From Flavobacteriaceae bacterium (GTDB lineage: Bacteria > Bacteroidota > Bacteroidia > Flavobacteriales > Flavobacteriaceae), in NCBI GenBank assembly GCA_002723075.1, contig PBNJ01000024.1, forward strand, positions 1 to 64,000: a DNA stretch of 64,000 nucleotides, read 5' to 3'. Positions 39,223 through 62,381 of this stretch are shown piece by piece. Position numbers and translations under genes: made by a program. The notes under the pieces were generated by a model that was given only the letters and a program-made list of their open reading frames with translations, was not told the DNA's origin and searched no databases. Position 1 is the stretch's first letter. Each line of letters starts with the position of its first letter.

Positions 39223-40497
39223 ATGAATTCTCCTCTTGCAGAACGCATGCGCCCGCAAACACTCGATGATTTTATAGGTCAAGAGCATTTGGTCGGTCCA
39301 AAGGGAGTTTTGGCATCGTATAAAGATCAAAATCTGATTCCTTCCCTCCTCTTTTGGGGGCCACCAGGCGTGGGTAAAACGACCTTAGCTCAACTCATCG
39401 CTAAAGATCGTCCTTTTAAGCAGCTCAGCGCAATTGAATCAGGAGTTAAAGAGGTGCGGGCAGTCATCCAGCAGGCCAAGCGTCAAGATAGTTTGTTTTC
39501 AGCTGAAAAACGTACAGTTTTATTTATCGATGAAATTCATCGCTTTAGCAAGTCGCAACAAGACGCTTTGCTTGGAGCCGTTGAGAAAGGGTGGGTTACA
39601 CTTATCGGAGCAACGACCGAAAATCCGAGTTTTGAGGTTATTCCAGCACTACGTTCACGATGCCAGTTATACATCCTCGAACCACTGACCAAAAAACACC
39701 TCATTTCGATTCTAAACCAAGCGATTTCTAAAGACGAGCAATTGCAACAGAAATCGATTGCACTTAAAGAAACAGATGCTCTTCTTCGATATTCAGGTGG
39801 TGATGCACGACGATTGCTCAACCTTTTTGAACTGTGTGTGCTAGCCAGTAGAACTAAAAAAGTAATACTAAAAAATACGTTTGTTGCCCAAATCGCCCAA
39901 CAAAATACAGCCCAATACGACAAAGGCGGGGAGAAACATTACGATATCATTTCTGCCTTTATCAAATCTATACGTGGGAGTGACCCAAATGCGGCAGTGT
40001 ATTGGCTTGCTCGGATGCTTGAAGGAGGAGAAGAAATCAAGTTTATTGCCCGTCGTTTGGTGATTCTGGCCAGTGAAGACATTGGAAATGCCAACCCAAC
40101 AGCTCTTGTCTTGGCACAAAGTTGCTTTGAGGCAGTACACACAATCGGAATGCCAGAGGCTCGAATCCTATTGAGTCAATGTGCCATTTATCTTGCAAGC
40201 TCTCCAAAAAGCAATAGCAGTTATGAAGCGATATTAAAAGCCCAAAAACTTGTTTCTGAGACAGGAGATTTGACAGTTCCCCTACCCTTGCGAAATGCAC
40301 CCACAGAACTGATGAAAGAACTCGACTATGGCAAAGACTATAATTATGCTCATCATTATGATGGGAATTTTGTCGATATGGAATTTATGCCAGAACAGCT
40401 CTTAGGCCATAAATTGTATATTCCAGGAAACAATCCGAGAGAAAACGAGATGAAATCTTTTCTTGAATCGCGCTGGAAAGACAAGTATAAATCCTAA
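39223..40497 (+). CDS. rarA: Replication-associated recombination AAA+ ATPase RarA/MgsA
   Basis: 424 residues. Walker [10 protein letters not shown] (46-54), Walker [15 protein letters not shown], sensor 1 [11 protein letters not shown] and the sensor 2 region [10 protein letters not shown]. The C-terminal MgsA tetramerisation domain shows [19 protein letters not shown] and [14 protein letters not shown]. It acts at stalled replication forks. It starts 17 bases after rlmB, and a TATCTTTA box 4 bases before the ATG may give it its own leaderless transcript. Its stop overlaps that of yjjG on the other strand (CTAA). Confidence 0.95.
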
Positions 40498-41186
40498 AGG
40501 ATCTCTAGTAATCTCTCTAAATCATCAATCATTACACAATCATTGTGTGGGGTTTCCCCTGCTACTGCAAAATGAATGGCATGCATTCCGACTTGCAGCG
40601 CACCAAGTATATCTGCCTCATAGCTGTCCCCGATCATAACAGCTCTAGATGGTTCACAGTTTGCATCACGCAGTGCCTTTTCAAAAATTAATGGGTTGGG
40701 TTTTTTGACACCAACAGACTCTGAATCTGTCACAGTACTAAAGTATGGCGTAAGATCCGCATTTCTCATCTTGAAGTGTTGTACCTCGCGAAATCCATTG
40801 GTAATGATATGTAACGAATACCGTTCTTTGAGTTTATCCAACACTTCGATAGCACCAGGAAAAAGATGGTTGTGTTCAGGAAGATTTTGAATATAGGCAT
40901 CTGCTAAAGTGAAAACCATGTCGTCATCAATAGAAATTTCCAATTGATCGAAAGTGTCTTTTATTCGTCGATATCGAAGGGTTTCTTTGTCCATTCGTTG
41001 TTCTCTAAAAGCTTTCCAATACTCTAAATTTAATGGCACATAAACCTTTAAAAAATCGTCTAATCTGACAGGGATTTGATAGTCGATTAATAGCTGATCA
41101 AAAGTGAGTGCAGAGTTTTTTTCAAAATCCCAGAGGGTGTGGTCTAAATCAAAAAAAAGATCGGTAATGGTTTCTTTATTGATCAT
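40494..41186 (-). CDS. HAD-family noncanonical pyrimidine nucleotidase, YjjG type
   Basis: 230 residues. HAD motif 1 is FFDLDHTLWDFEKNS (nucleophile Asp13, acid Asp15), whose DHTLWDF wording is typical of the YjjG subfamily; motif 2 is HIITNGFREVQ, the lysine is in VGVKKPNP and motif 4 is MIGDSYEADILGA. It probably dephosphorylates nucleoside monophosphates, including damaged pyrimidines. It overlaps the upstream deacetylase-like gene by 11 bases. Confidence 0.88.
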   Translation of the reverse strand: MINKETITDLFFDLDHTLWDFEKNSALTFDQLLIDYQIPVRLDDFLKVYVPLNLEYWKAFREQRMDKETLRYRRIKDTFDQLEISIDDDMVFTLADAYIQNLPEHNHLFPGAIEVLDKLKERYSLHIITNGFREVQHFKMRNADLTPYFSTVTDSESVGVKKPNPLIFEKALRDANCEPSRAVMIGDSYEADILGALQVGMHAIHFAVAGETPHNDCVMIDDLERLLEIL

Positions 41187-42474
41187 AGCTTTCCAAAAAT
41201 TCGGTAAACATTCTCTTCCACGCCTTATTTTTCATCCGTTCATCCATAATCGTATTAGTCAGCACTAGGGTCAATGGTGTGCCATACTCGCTATTGTAGG
41301 TTTTACACTGTTCCAGTAGTCGTCTCGCTTTACGTGGAGAACGATTTGCTCGAAGTATAGCCTCATGAGCGACAACAGGATGGATGAATAAGTTTGACCG
41401 CTGCTCTTTACTGAGGTTATAAAACTGAAAAGGAAAGCCAGTTCCCGCTCGATAGCCGAGATAATCTACAAACTGTAAGGAGTAGTCATTGGCAAATCCC
41501 AATTTCGCAAATTGGTCATAAGTTGTTGGAAAGCGAAGGCGTACCAAATATTGTCGGATATCTTTTAGAGGATGATGTATGATTTCGCTCAATCGGTTGA
41601 CTTCAATCTGAAGCAGTTGGGGTTGATCAGTGGATTGATAGGAGGCCAAAAGAGATGTGGATACATAGTCCGCAACATCTTTAATCTTTTCTAGAAATCG
41701 ATGTTTGAAAATCGAGATATTTCGATCATGTGCACTTGGCTGAGCAAACATAAACATCACTTTAGTTGGTATATTTGTTTTTTGATGTAAGGCAATCCAA
41801 GATTTATAAATATCATAGGGGTCTGGCCGAAACGATAGGCGTACAGCAAAACGTTCAAAAAGTTTAACAAAGCGAAGGTTAAAAAAATCAAACCCACTTT
41901 CAACTAAAGTTCGAAGCATGCTTTTTGATTTATAAGCAAAAGCCTCTGGAACCTCGAGAATGGTTTGAAGTCTTCGTGTTGGGGGTTTGACAAGAATTTC
42001 TGGAAAAAATTCTGTAAAGCAATCCAAAAATTGTCGTGCCCATATATCAACTACAGGTTTATTTGCGAACTTATGTTTGCCCGCTAGAGAACCACTGGTA
42101 TAAAACCGATTCATATCATCTTTCAAGTGCGGGATATGTTCTTCGTAGCGAGCTAACAAATAGAAAGTAGCTGCAAAAATATCATAGGGTATCGAACTTT
42201 CTTTATCACATGAAAAAAAGACAGGCGTTGTTTGCCAACGACTGATTTTGATGTCTTGTTCCTTTACTCCCTGCTCAAACAATAAAGCGTTTGCTTGAAC
42301 AAAAAATTCGTTACCAAGCTTTTGATTCGTGTATGAAAACTTAGGTCCATTATGTGCAATAAATGTTTCCAGCACATTCGTAATTTGAATAGAATTGTTC
42401 GTGTAAGTTTCAAAAAAATGTGTAAACACATAGCGTATACGAGCATTCAATTGATGGGTATAGATCAGTATCAT
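41176..42474 (-). CDS. Polysaccharide deacetylase-like protein (DUF7033 family), catalytic residues apparently degenerate
   Basis: 432 residues, cytoplasmic by sequence (no signal peptide). The N-terminal DUF7033-like domain (MILIYTHQLNARIRYVFTHF; YDIFAATFYLLARYEEH) and the NodB-like barrel with SFRPDPYDIYKS, SAHDRNIS, FAKLGFANDYSLQF and GYRAGTGFPFQFYNL match the flavobacterial family. Family members I recall have DVD near the start of the barrel, a GIHPSY histidine and RQHYL; here the places read ILEVPEAFAYK, SLLASYQS and IRQYLVRL. The metal ligands therefore look lost. It directly follows radC and overlaps yjjG. Confidence 0.75.
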   Translation of the reverse strand: MILIYTHQLNARIRYVFTHFFETYTNNSIQITNVLETFIAHNGPKFSYTNQKLGNEFFVQANALLFEQGVKEQDIKISRWQTTPVFFSCDKESSIPYDIFAATFYLLARYEEHIPHLKDDMNRFYTSGSLAGKHKFANKPVVDIWARQFLDCFTEFFPEILVKPPTRRLQTILEVPEAFAYKSKSMLRTLVESGFDFFNLRFVKLFERFAVRLSFRPDPYDIYKSWIALHQKTNIPTKVMFMFAQPSAHDRNISIFKHRFLEKIKDVADYVSTSLLASYQSTDQPQLLQIEVNRLSEIIHHPLKDIRQYLVRLRFPTTYDQFAKLGFANDYSLQFVDYLGYRAGTGFPFQFYNLSKEQRSNLFIHPVVAHEAILRANRSPRKARRLLEQCKTYNSEYGTPLTLVLTNTIMDERMKNKAWKRMFTEFLESYDQ

Positions 42475-43160
42475 TTACAGCTGTCCTTCATCGGCAAAGC
42501 TAAAATACGTGTTTTCTGTAATGATAAGGTGATCAAGGAGGCGGATGTCAAGATTTTTTCCAGCTTTTTCAAATTTTTTGGTCAATGAGTGGTCCGACTG
42601 GCTTGGTCTTGGATGCCCCGAGGGATGGTTATGCGCAAGTATCATGGCAACGGCCTGAAGTGCAAGTGCCCGCTTAAAGGCAAGTCGCATATCAACTGAA
42701 GTTTGCGTTATGCCGCCACGACTGAGTTGCTCATGGCTAAGTACTGCATGTTGTTGGTTGAGGTAGATTACCCAAAATTCTTCATGCTGAAGATTTCCAA
42801 GATGAGGTTGAAGAAAATCAAAAACCGACTGGCTGCTGCTGAGATGAATGCGGTTGAGGGGGGTTGCTTATGGCGGCGTACCAATTCATAAGCCGCTGCG
42901 AGACGAGTGGCCTTGGCGAGTCCAACTCCGTGAAATTCGCACAACTCTTCTAAACTACATTGTGCCAACTGATCAAGATGATTATCGTACTGAGCCAACA
43001 TGCGTTGGGCAAGCATAACCGCGGACTCATTGGGCGTACAAGAACCGAGCAAAATTGCGAGGAGTTCAGAACTAGTAAGACTTTTATGACCAAATTTGAC
43101 CAACTTTTCTCTTGGTCGATCATCGGTGGCCCACCGGCTGATGGGAAAACGTGTTTTCAT
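42475..43160 (-). pseudogene. radC: RadC/JAB-domain protein, frameshifted in a homopolymer
   Basis: Start ATG 43160 (MKTRFPISRWATDDRPREKL). The first part is normal RadC with a helix-hairpin-helix (EELCEFHGVGLAKATRLAAA) up to ELVRRHKQPP. Then the frame runs off and stops at 42768. In another frame the protein continues with FDFLQPHLGNLQHEEFWVIY, SRGGITQTSVDMRLAFKRAL and the JAMM motif HNHPSGHPRPSQSD, ending FADEGQL at 42475. The shift lies in a run of six G (42858-42863 on the plus strand); a seventh base restores one open frame. Either a real mutation, phase variation, or a sequencing error. RadC function is itself poorly defined. Confidence 0.88.
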
Positions 43161-43198
43161 TGGGGACTTACTTTGCTTAAAGATAGAAAAATCCGCTG

Positions 43199-44539
43199 TC
43201 AATCAACCAAACTGTGAAAATCAAGACCTCCAAAATGCCCAGAACTCATCATCAATACGATTGATGCGGGTTGTTGTTGAAGCCAGTTTAATAGGGTTTT
43301 TTTATTGTAGAAAACATATAGTGATCGGTGGGAAAAGGCATTGCGGATTGTCTCCTCATCAAGCGGATCCTTCCCCTTGGCTTTTCGAGACTCGTCATCG
43401 ATAAAAACAACTGCAATATCTGTATGGACAAGGCAATTGGCGTAGGTATGGATAAAACTGGAATCCAAACTACTAAATGTATGAAGCTCCAAACAAGCTA
43501 AAAAAAGGTCATTTGGGAATTGTTCACGCACAGCTTTCGTCGTTGCTTGAACCTTACTGGGAGCATGTGCAAAATCACGATATATGCGCTTTCCAGGACG
43601 ATCAGCAAAAAGCTCCAATCGTTTTGAAGCACCAGAAAAGGAAGGGATAGACTCATAAAACATAACTGGCTCAATCCCCAATTGGGTGCAGACAAGAAGT
43701 GCTCCAGAGAGATTACTCATATTGTGTTGGCCGAAAATTTGCAATGGTATCGGTCCTTCATCTGACTCCAGTTGGGTTTGTCCATTGTCCACAGTGGATG
43801 GGTGCGTTTGATAAGGAATCTTTCGAATCGGATGTTTGGAAGTGGCAACTAACTCTTCAAGGATTTCATCTTCCTGGTTATAAATCAAAATTCCTCCAGC
43901 TGTCATGGTCTCGATAAACAGCTTAAACTGCTCTACGTACTCTGCCTTGGTGGGAAATACATTGACATGATCCCAAGCAATTCCGCTTATTAATGCAATA
44001 TTGGGTTTATAAAGATGAAATTTCGGTCGACGATCAATGGAAGAGGAGAGATATTCATCTCCTTCTAAAACAACAAATTCGTTATCCTCCGTGAGATGCG
44101 TCATGATATCAAATCCCTCTAGCTGGGCTCCCACCATATAGTCCACAGACAAATCCCAATAATCCAGCACATGAAGGATCATGGCGGTAATGCTGGTTTT
44201 ACCATGACTGCCTCCAATAACAACTCTTGTTTTCTCTTTGGTCGCTTCGTAAAGGTACTCTGGATAGGAGTAGACAGGAAGAGACAATGCCTTAGCTGCC
44301 AGAAGTTCGGGGTTATCTGCTTTGGCGTGCATCCCTAAAATTATGACATCAATACTCTCGTCAATCCGACTAGCATCCCAACCGAAAGAATGCGGAAGCA
44401 AGCCCTCTTTTTCAAGACGTGAACGAGAAGGTTCATAAATCGCATCATCGCTTCCCGTCACTCGATTTCCTTTTCGATGTAATGCAATGGCCAAATTGTG
44501 CATGGCACTACCACCGATCGCAATAAAATGTATCCGCAT
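43199..44539 (-). CDS. mpl: Mur ligase family protein, Mpl type (UDP-MurNAc : murein tripeptide ligase)
   Basis: 446 residues. It starts [20 protein letters not shown], the Mpl variant of the MurC beginning. The ATP site is VIGGSHGKTSITAMI, followed by FVVLEGDEYLSSSIDRRPKF, ISGIAWDHVNVFPT and the C-terminal YRDFAHAPSKVQATTKAV. Mpl recycles the peptide of old peptidoglycan by linking it to UDP-MurNAc. The ATG shares one base with the stop of the TPR gene upstream. Confidence 0.9.
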   Translation of the reverse strand: MRIHFIAIGGSAMHNLAIALHRKGNRVTGSDDAIYEPSRSRLEKEGLLPHSFGWDASRIDESIDVIILGMHAKADNPELLAAKALSLPVYSYPEYLYEATKEKTRVVIGGSHGKTSITAMILHVLDYWDLSVDYMVGAQLEGFDIMTHLTEDNEFVVLEGDEYLSSSIDRRPKFHLYKPNIALISGIAWDHVNVFPTKAEYVEQFKLFIETMTAGGILIYNQEDEILEELVATSKHPIRKIPYQTHPSTVDNGQTQLESDEGPIPLQIFGQHNMSNLSGALLVCTQLGIEPVMFYESIPSFSGASKRLELFADRPGKRIYRDFAHAPSKVQATTKAVREQFPNDLFLACLELHTFSSLDSSFIHTYANCLVHTDIAVVFIDDESRKAKGKDPLDEETIRNAFSHRSLYVFYNKKTLLNWLQQQPASIVLMMSSGHFGGLDFHSLVD

Positions 44540-48271: not shown

Positions 48272-48754
48272 ATGAAAGTAGCCATTATCATGGGAAGTGC
48301 CTCCGACATGCCTGTTATGGAAGGCGCCATCAAAATCTTACAGGGGTTTGGTGTAGAAACCCAAGTGGATATCGTTTCTGCTCATCGAACACCTTCCTAT
48401 ATGATGCGCTTTGCGACCTCAGCCCACCAAAACGGAATCGGCGTTGTTATCGCTGGCGCTGGTGGTGCTGCACACCTTCCTGGTATGGTTGCTGCTACAA
48501 GTCCTCTTCCTGTAATTGGGGTGCCTGTCAAATCGAGAAATTCGATTGATGGTTGGGACTCTGTACTTTCGATTTTGCAAATGCCTAGTGGTGTTCCCGT
48601 GGCGACTGTGGCGTTGAATGGTGCAGAAAATGCGGGGATTCTTGCTGCTCAGATTCTTGCTACTTCTAACAAAGAACTCCAAAATAAGATCGTTGCATAT
48701 AAAGATGGTCTTGCTCAAAAAGTAGAGGCATCACGAAAAGAGATTAATTCTTAG
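48272..48754 (+). CDS. purE: N5-carboxyaminoimidazole ribonucleotide mutase
   Basis: 160 residues, class I PurE. It shows IIMGSASDMPVMEGAIKIL, the catalytic VSAHRTPSYM, IAGAGGAAHLPGMVAATSPL and PVKSRNSIDGWDSVLSILQM. It rearranges N5-CAIR to CAIR in purine synthesis. The stop TAG overlaps the stop of the convergent UbiA-like gene (TTAG). Confidence 0.96.
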   Translation: MKVAIIMGSASDMPVMEGAIKILQGFGVETQVDIVSAHRTPSYMMRFATSAHQNGIGVVIAGAGGAAHLPGMVAATSPLPVIGVPVKSRNSIDGWDSVLSILQMPSGVPVATVALNGAENAGILAAQILATSNKELQNKIVAYKDGLAQKVEASRKEINS

Positions 48755-49563
48755 ATCCTTTTCCAAATCACAACCATCAACAACCAGACCATGGGAAGTG
48801 CCTCCACCCAAAACGATGCATAATAAGTGCTTTGTTGAATGGTTGACTTCCATAAACAGACGAGTGCCAATCCACAAGCGATTAAAGTTGGAATCATATC
48901 ATAGCGATTTAGCGACAAACAATATGACAGGATAACTACCCCAAACAACATTAAGGTGCCAATCATTTTAGAACCTCGAACACCAAATACATGAGGAATC
49001 GTTTTCATGCTTTTGCTATCCTTGTGGGCATCACGGATTTCAAAAGGAATTATAGTGGAGAAAGTCCACAAAGCCATTTGAAACCACAGAAGCCAAATCA
49101 CTCTATCAAATTCGATTTGATGATTGAGCAAGGGCAACAAAACAACCACTGAAGCCCAGCATGCTGCTACGACAAATGACTTGAGGTAAGGCAAGTAGCG
49201 TAATCCCCCAAAAAAACGATTGCTAGGAAGTACATAGGTCAAACACATCATTCCCAAAAGCAAGGCAACGAGGAGCGTTTGAGAAGTGAGTTTTGTTGCT
49301 GATAAGCCCATGCCCAAGGCGGAGATGAGCGAAAAGACAAGAATCGGCGTATTGAAACTTGACCTTGTGTCTGGAGAAGCATAATAACGAATAAAGTTAT
49401 AAGTCCCTACAGTCGCACAAAAGATAAAGGCAAACAGATTGGTTTGCCAAGATAGCTCAAAATGCAAATGGGTTAAATACAGTAGTGAAAGTAGGGCAAA
49501 TGCAACATGAGTACTCGACAGAACATAAAAGCGAAAAAGTTTAGTAATCAATGAGACAAGCAT
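48751..49563 (-). CDS. UbiA-like integral membrane protein with one degenerate motif
   Basis: 270 residues from ATG 49563, about eight membrane helices. RDAHKDSKSMKTIPHVFG matches the second aspartate-rich motif of the UbiA prenyltransferases, preceded by FSTIIPFEI. The first motif (NxxxDxxxD) is not present; the matching place reads TYNFIRYYASPD. It may be an inactive or divergent family member found in flavobacteria; the function is unknown. A TATATTTG box 6 bases upstream supports the ATG over a TTG at 49572. Confidence 0.75.
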   Translation of the reverse strand: MLVSLITKLFRFYVLSSTHVAFALLSLLYLTHLHFELSWQTNLFAFIFCATVGTYNFIRYYASPDTRSSFNTPILVFSLISALGMGLSATKLTSQTLLVALLLGMMCLTYVLPSNRFFGGLRYLPYLKSFVVAACWASVVVLLPLLNHQIEFDRVIWLLWFQMALWTFSTIIPFEIRDAHKDSKSMKTIPHVFGVRGSKMIGTLMLFGVVILSYCLSLNRYDMIPTLIACGLALVCLWKSTIQQSTYYASFWVEALPMVWLLMVVIWKRI

Positions 49564-49569
49564 TATTGA

Positions 49570-49577
49570 CAAATATA
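49570..49577 (-). promoter_or_regulatory. -7 box of the UbiA-like gene
   Basis: TATATTTG on the minus strand, then TCAATA, then the ATG at 49563. It is another very short or absent leader. Confidence 0.55.
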
Positions 49578-61277: not shown

Positions 61278-62276
61278 TTATAATTTATGTGCTAAAAATG
61301 GATAATCGCTTTGTTCGTAAACAGCATCATACATCACAGATTTTTCAGGATAGGGCGAAGACTCTGCATAATCTGCGCATTCTTGAACCCGAACTTTCAC
61401 ATCTGCATCGATACTTCCGAGTTCATCTTCGGAAGCAAATTCGTTTTTCAGAATGTGCTCGCGAACTTGGGTGATTGGATCAATTTTACGGTATTCATTG
61501 ACTTCATCTTTGGTTCGGTAATGTTGTGCGTCTGACATCGAATGTCCACGATATCTGTATGTTTTTGCTTCCAAGAAGGTAGGGCCTTCCCCTTTTCTTG
61601 CTCTTTTAATCGCTTCAGAAATCCCCTCTGCCACCTTCACAGGATCCATTCCGTCAATGGGTCCACATGGCATTTCATAGCCAAGACCTAGTTTCCAGAT
61701 GTCCGTATGATTGGCTGTGCGCTCAACAGAAGTTCCCATGGCATAGCCATTGTTCTCCACGATAAACACAACTGGAAGTTTCCATAACATGGCGAGATTG
61801 AGTGTTTCGTGAAGTGAGCCCTGACGAACAGCTCCATCACCCATATAACAGAGTGTTACAGCGTCGCTTCCATGGTATTTATCTCCAAATGCCATTCCAG
61901 CTCCTAAAGGAATTTGACCCCCGACAATTCCGTGCCCCCCATGAAAGCGGTGTTCTTTAGAAAAAATATGCATTGAGCCCCCAAGACCTTGGGAAGTTCC
62001 CGTTGCTTTACCGTACAATTCGGCCATCACACGTTTGGGGTCAACACCCATCCCAATGGGCTGAACGTGGTTGCGATAGGCTGTGATCATCCTGTCTTTG
62101 GTGAGGTCCATCGCATGAAGGGAACCAGCCAGAACTGCTTCTTGCCCATTGTATAGATGTAAAAATCCTCGTACTTTTTGTTGAATGTAAACAGCGGCAA
62201 GCTTGTCTTCAAACTTTCGCCAGAAGAGCATATTCTCATACCAGCTCAAATAAGTTTCTTTGGTTACTTCTTTCAT
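61278..62276 (-). CDS. pdhA: Pyruvate dehydrogenase E1 component, alpha subunit
   Basis: 332 residues from ATG 62276 (MKEVTKETYLSWYENMLFWR); longer readings cross the promoter box at 62314. The thiamine diphosphate motif is YMGDGAVRQGSLHETLNLA to VENNGYAMGT, and the phosphorylation-loop-like YRGHSMSDAQHYRTKDEV is present. It decarboxylates pyruvate together with the beta subunit, which is not in this window. Confidence 0.95.
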   Translation of the reverse strand: MKEVTKETYLSWYENMLFWRKFEDKLAAVYIQQKVRGFLHLYNGQEAVLAGSLHAMDLTKDRMITAYRNHVQPIGMGVDPKRVMAELYGKATGTSQGLGGSMHIFSKEHRFHGGHGIVGGQIPLGAGMAFGDKYHGSDAVTLCYMGDGAVRQGSLHETLNLAMLWKLPVVFIVENNGYAMGTSVERTANHTDIWKLGLGYEMPCGPIDGMDPVKVAEGISEAIKRARKGEGPTFLEAKTYRYRGHSMSDAQHYRTKDEVNEYRKIDPITQVREHILKNEFASEDELGSIDADVKVRVQECADYAESSPYPEKSVMYDAVYEQSDYPFLAHKL

Positions 62277-62313
62277 AGAATCAATATCTTTTGTTTCCAA
62301 TGATATCTGACTG

Positions 62314-62321
62314 CAAAGGTA
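62314..62321 (-). promoter_or_regulatory. -7 box of the pdhA-pdhC operon
   Basis: TACCTTTG on the minus strand, 37 bases before the pdhA ATG. It lies in the 105-base gap after porV and would drive pdhA-pdhC-SDR-sprT-DUF389. Confidence 0.5.
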
Positions 62322-62381
62322 ATGCTTTCCCACTTTTTGTAAAAACGGGAAATGGGATTATTCAAACAATAATGGCAATTG

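Follow-up and report, generated by a model that had tools for sequence, protein, structure and literature searches.

Probable recent inactivation of radC in a genus of small-genome marine Flavobacteriaceae, alongside loss of comEC and dprA

The radC gene in a 64,000-nucleotide stretch of a Flavobacteriaceae genome (the window; genome G000) is split between two reading frames, and radC is broken in six of the ten loci scored in the genus. We consider it probable that the G000 gene is freshly inactivated, is one of at least five radC losses in a genus of small-genome marine Flavobacteriaceae, and is decaying alongside natural transformation. A single radC frameshift is ordinary, but the pattern in the genus is not. 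A conserved radC, with intact flanks, appears to be decaying there in at least five separate stages, and comEC and dprA are being lost from the same lineages.

radC is located on the minus strand of the window at positions 42475–43160, from a family-like ATG (43160) to a family-like stop codon (42475–42477). Reading from the ATG gives 130 amino acids, the closing stretch of which is out of frame, up to a TAA stop (42768–42770). This truncated N-terminal half (42768–43160, minus strand) contains the UPF0758_N, or helix-hairpin-helix, part; the match to PF20582 (E 3.4e-26) was obtained with the wider open reading frame at 42768–43202 (minus strand). The C-terminal half lies in a different frame, is free of stops, and matches the RadC JAMM domain (PF04002; 42484–42840, minus strand; E 9.3e-45). 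It retains the HNHPSG motif, which agrees with HxHPSG and is followed by the expected Asp. The two matches bear out the assignment to radC in the original prediction, and the conserved halves do meet, as described there, at exactly six G (42858–42863; CCCCCC on the coding strand). As read from the DNA, one family protein divided between two frames where its relatives are continuous is beyond chance.

The radC stretch of G000 is 716 bases in length, as compared with 717 in the congeners G008 and G012 (88% nucleotide identity), where radC is a single open frame. These are the closest full-length relatives of the G000 copy, and the comparison upholds the proposed one-base split. Full-length close relatives together with an inactivating lesion in G000 are what is expected of a recent pseudogene. 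Both halves of G000 radC have a dN/dS of ~0.05–0.10 against close congeners, which is like that of the flanking genes; a raised dN/dS in G000 radC, as a mark of older decay, was sought and not found. The lesion, if real, must therefore be young, as had been argued from the intact downstream half. Loss of one base in the linker between the helix-hairpin-helix and JAMM parts would shift translation, which would end at the TAA codon, and the predicted product is a 130-amino acid N-terminal fragment without the metal site.

The genus was sampled with 13 genomes, the congeners of G000 being annotated mostly as Flavobacteriaceae. In the window, radC lies between an upstream Mur ligase gene (MurC/Mpl type, under NCBIfam cut-offs; 43199–44539, minus strand) and a downstream DUF7033 gene with a weak VimE-deacetylase match (41176–42474, minus strand), whose ATG directly follows the radC stop (TAAATG). 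Orthologues of these two genes are side by side in ten of the 13 genomes, and the radC locus was scored in these ten. G001, G006, and G010 have only distant relatives of the Mur ligase; their radC locus was unseen and falls outside the ten. None of the ten loci has a broken flanking gene (the DUF7033 gene of G005 is cut by the contig end). radC is full-length in G008, G012, G011, and G009, and in G008 it scores above both NCBIfam cut-offs for RadC. It is broken in G000, G003, G005, G004, G002, and G007.

The lesions differ from each other. In addition to the one-base frameshift in G000, G003 has a 130-nt deletion between CCCAATGAGT repeats, which removes the start and the N-terminal part (interval of 599 as compared with ~729 nt). 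In G005, the JAMM part is interrupted after LSR by a 998-bp insertion. In G004, two TAA codons occur, the start ATG has become ATT, and the first His of HNHPSG has become Asp (HNH to DNH). G002 and G007 have near-complete deletions, with 242 and 206 nt remaining, respectively. A tree of the two flanking genes supports a clade of six (97–99) and the pairing of G004 with G007 (100), but leaves the branching within the six unsupported (26–74). As sisters, G004 and G007 may share a first lesion. Since the lesions differ, the copies in G000, G003, and G005 are otherwise well preserved, and G004 and G007 are sisters, we infer that radC was inactivated at least five times separately in the genus.

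The end of radC (window positions 42475–42530; TATTTTAGCTTTG ... TAAATG) is nearly unchanged in nine congeners, even in G002 and G007, in which the rest of the gene is gone. The DUF7033 gene may have its promoter or ribosome site in this segment. The segment includes TAGCTTTG, which agrees with TAnnTTTG, the Bacteroidota -7 consensus.

Breakage is far rarer in the surroundings of radC. Among 36 neighboring gene families scored on the contigs around radC, three of 169 copies were broken, as compared with six of ten for radC (Fisher p = 4e-7), and radC was the only one broken among the 33 gene families scored on the G000 contig. A RarA-like gene in G004 (contig C35; homologue of window 39223–40497) and a 1248-amino acid gene in G005 (contig C94; homologue of window 63540–67286) each carry a single in-frame stop and are clearly short. 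In G008, the frame of the homologue of window 48751–49572 (contig C11, 17100–17960, L064) is broken within an N-rich stretch, probably through a flaw of assembly; the G008 assembly is in part of low quality. That copy was intact by the length rule but was entered as broken for strictness.

Two competence genes are also being lost in the genus. The comEC locus is flanked by a thioredoxin-like gene on one side and an NlpC-like gene on the other. comEC is whole in G012, G011, G009, and G006, and is deleted between intact neighbors in seven genomes (G000, G008, G004, G010, G007, G001, and G002). Remnants correspond to residues 1–61 and 628–660 in G000 (contig C10, L120), 1–21 and 609–660 in G008, and 1–12 and 623–659 in G004; one short piece is left in each of G010, G007, and G001, and nothing in G002. 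A search for a comEC match in G003 gave none, and the G005 contig ends at the locus. The dprA locus, between trpS and a SPOR-like gene, could be followed through a marker gene found in seven of the 13 genomes. dprA is whole in G012, G003, and G005. It is gone in G000 (contig C14, L093/L101) and G002, where the matched neighbors are separated by ~60 and ~255 nt, respectively, and the G008 contig ends at the locus. In G010 (contig C39, L096), dprA is internally deleted (residues ~58–295 missing) between intact neighbors, a competence gene in decay.

All three genes are whole in G012, and in G000 comEC and dprA are lost and radC is broken. In the eight genomes with readable radC and comEC loci, radC is full-length in three of three with comEC and in one of five without, an association that is suggestive in a sample too small to test. 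Tight coupling of radC with comEC or dprA was sought within the genus and not found, as their states are mismatched: G008 has kept radC and lost comEC, and G003 and G005 have a broken radC and have kept dprA.

The same genes are absent together across the family. We drew 249 Flavobacteriaceae genomes evenly, counting radC as present on a profile match and dprA over its cut-off. The genomes were sorted by hand, with two radC-negative and five comEC-negative genomes identified as those missing from the tables. Matches were found to radC in 227, to dprA in 227, and to comEC in 224. Both radC and comEC were absent in 15 genomes, radC only in seven, comEC only in ten (among them G000 and G004, both with a broken radC), and neither in 217. 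For radC and dprA the corresponding counts were 14, 8, 8, and 219; for comEC and dprA they were 19, 6 (comEC only), 3 (dprA only), and 221. The joint absence of radC with comEC (p = 1e-12) and with dprA (p = 3e-12) shows co-loss and not its cause, since these p-values ignore shared ancestry and the comparison is without a neutral control gene. Shared ancestry may indeed lie behind the co-absence. Among the 209 genomes that are at least 90% complete, radC and comEC were both absent in six, radC only in four, comEC only in three, and neither in 196 (p = 2e-7).

The co-loss in the genus and in the family supports, and does not demonstrate, the idea that radC decays due to the loss of transformation. 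radC would have become dispensable in the genus as natural transformation is being lost. One form of this idea, which we put forward tentatively as a real possibility, is that RadC in Flavobacteriaceae works in, or matters only for, ComEC- and DprA-dependent DNA uptake, such that the loss of comEC and dprA lifts selection on radC and frees it to decay through frameshift, deletion, insertion, and nonsense changes. Here the order of the losses is inferred along with the functional tie.

It is also possible that radC is simply one of many dispensable genes lost through genome streamlining, with no functional tie to transformation. Consistent with this, 19 of the 22 family genomes without radC are at most 2.1 Mb in size, the seven that lack only radC of the pair have comEC, and the states of the three genes are mismatched in G008, G003, and G005. 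However, the association persists among small genomes. Of the 34 genomes of at most 2.1 Mb (a limit set after the table was seen, and applied to rounded assembly sizes), 21 have radC absent or broken, and comEC is absent in 16 of these and dprA likewise in 16; neither comEC nor dprA is absent in any of the 13 with a radC match (p = 1e-5). With this genus removed, comEC is missing from 14 of the 19 small genomes whose radC is absent or broken, and from 0 of the 13 that match radC (p = 3e-5).

An error in the reads or assembly, with a true sequence one base longer and an intact radC in G000, is unlikely. The lesion is a single base, both halves show purifying selection, G008 and G012 have one base more, and the assembly (1.69 Mb) is a 28-contig draft that is 85% complete, all of which would suit an error. 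Against it, radC alone is broken among the families scored on the G000 contig, and five other congeneric loci, which come from differently named assemblies, also have a broken radC. The congeneric assemblies are of different projects, including those of the isolates AG-349-I20 and AH-326-E05, as well as TMED81, UBA5950, SI037_bin2, and MOX_bin68. If radC was inactivated at least five times, as we read the genus, then a recent loss that is real has the better odds over a read error. In addition, G000 RadC has a private change in its N-terminal part, a Gly to Cys substitution where all 11 reference RadCs have Gly, which is not explained by a homopolymer read error. The four intact congeners have no private changes at fully invariant RadC sites except at column 171 (G008 and G012), at a fragment end, which we read as an alignment artefact; G003 has one such change, and G004 several, including a metal ligand. 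We regard a real, recent inactivation of radC in G000 as the likeliest reading by far. A null mutation, which the original prediction had listed as one option among several, has thereby become likelier than it had looked, with six of ten congeneric loci broken.

We give very little weight to the notion that radC is broken as a preferred insertion site of mobile elements, as it is for Tn554-like transposons in Firmicutes (PMC3788773, where a conserved radC site is described as preferred by these elements). This literature could be relevant to the G005 insertion alone, and insertion accounts for at most one of the six broken loci, the other five lesions contradicting it. The G005 element (contig C94, 1068–2065; L069) interrupts the JAMM part, has inverted ends (TTTTCCAACCCCAA), and carries a DUF1572 gene (PF07609, E 8.5e-71) and an 89-amino acid reading frame without a Pfam match. 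No transposase or tnpABC was recognized in it. It is possibly a small mobile gene cassette.

Homopolymers can slip, but phase-variable tracts are usually longer than six bases. A run of this length is nothing unusual here: the window contains two G/C runs of six or more bases, as compared with 6.8 expected from independent draws; the second (61935–61940) is inside an open reading frame (61278–62333) that has the same length as in relatives. A comparison of run length with close relatives, as had been proposed, found no six-base run at the radC junction in the five congeners compared there (G008, G012, G003, G005, and G004). The alignment across the run contained G004 in the opposite orientation and was used only for the similarly oriented rows. 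From these sequences, the tract arose in the G000 lineage and is private to G000, and the missing base therefore cannot be assigned to the run. Of the single-base shift in a six-G run that had been proposed, the one-base difference stands and its placement in the run is not supported. With the run absent in five congeners, the chief argument for phase variation or programmed slippage also falls away.

It is accordingly most improbable that phase variation or homopolymer slippage switches or rescues RadC, as had been suggested from the meeting of the frames at a six-base G/C run: the run is private, the other such run of the window is in a frame of normal length, other congeners lose radC via deletion, insertion, and nonsense changes that slippage cannot rescue, and four have a single open frame. 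A programmed -1 frameshift was ruled out, since RadC is read from one frame in four congeners.

What RadC does has long been an open question. It is reported as one of the competence proteins in Flavobacteriaceae and Pasteurellaceae (PMC7965970, PMC10269479), and in B. subtilis radC is described as part of an operon with ComK sites and as being of unknown function (PMC4474612). A V. cholerae study notes that radC is competence-induced in other bacteria, and reports that V. cholerae, S. pneumoniae, and H. influenzae can do without it in transformation (PMC6237807). E. coli radC mutants are reported to have normal DNA-damage sensitivity (PMC11981726). A literature search on radC, comEC, dprA, and gene loss, with preprints and most subscription journals outside its scope, gave one Rickettsia paper that joins these subjects and, among the papers listed, none on the present pattern. 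Co-loss in the family approaches the question from another side and opens it to testing. If true, it would speak independently for a role of RadC, which is competence-induced in several bacteria without a clear transformation phenotype.

Compared with the RadC family (TIGR00608/NF000642; PF20582 and PF04002), the G000 gene has both recognizable domains, but these are in different frames, and ordinary reading gives no full-length protein. It resembles phase-variable (contingency) genes in having its frame break at a short G/C run, and differs from them in that this short run is not shared by relatives. The G005 radC is split by an insertion, as are radC genes that carry Tn554-like elements such as Tn6188 of Listeria, from which the G005 insert differs in its 998-bp length, inverted ends, DUF1572 gene, and lack of a recognized tnpABC. 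The erosion of competence genes after the loss of transformation offers another parallel, as comEC and dprA are likewise deleted at their own loci in G000 and radC is broken. What differs in this case is that radC, a gene reported to be dispensable for transformation (PMC6237807), has been lost together with comEC and dprA, by many separate lesions in one genus.
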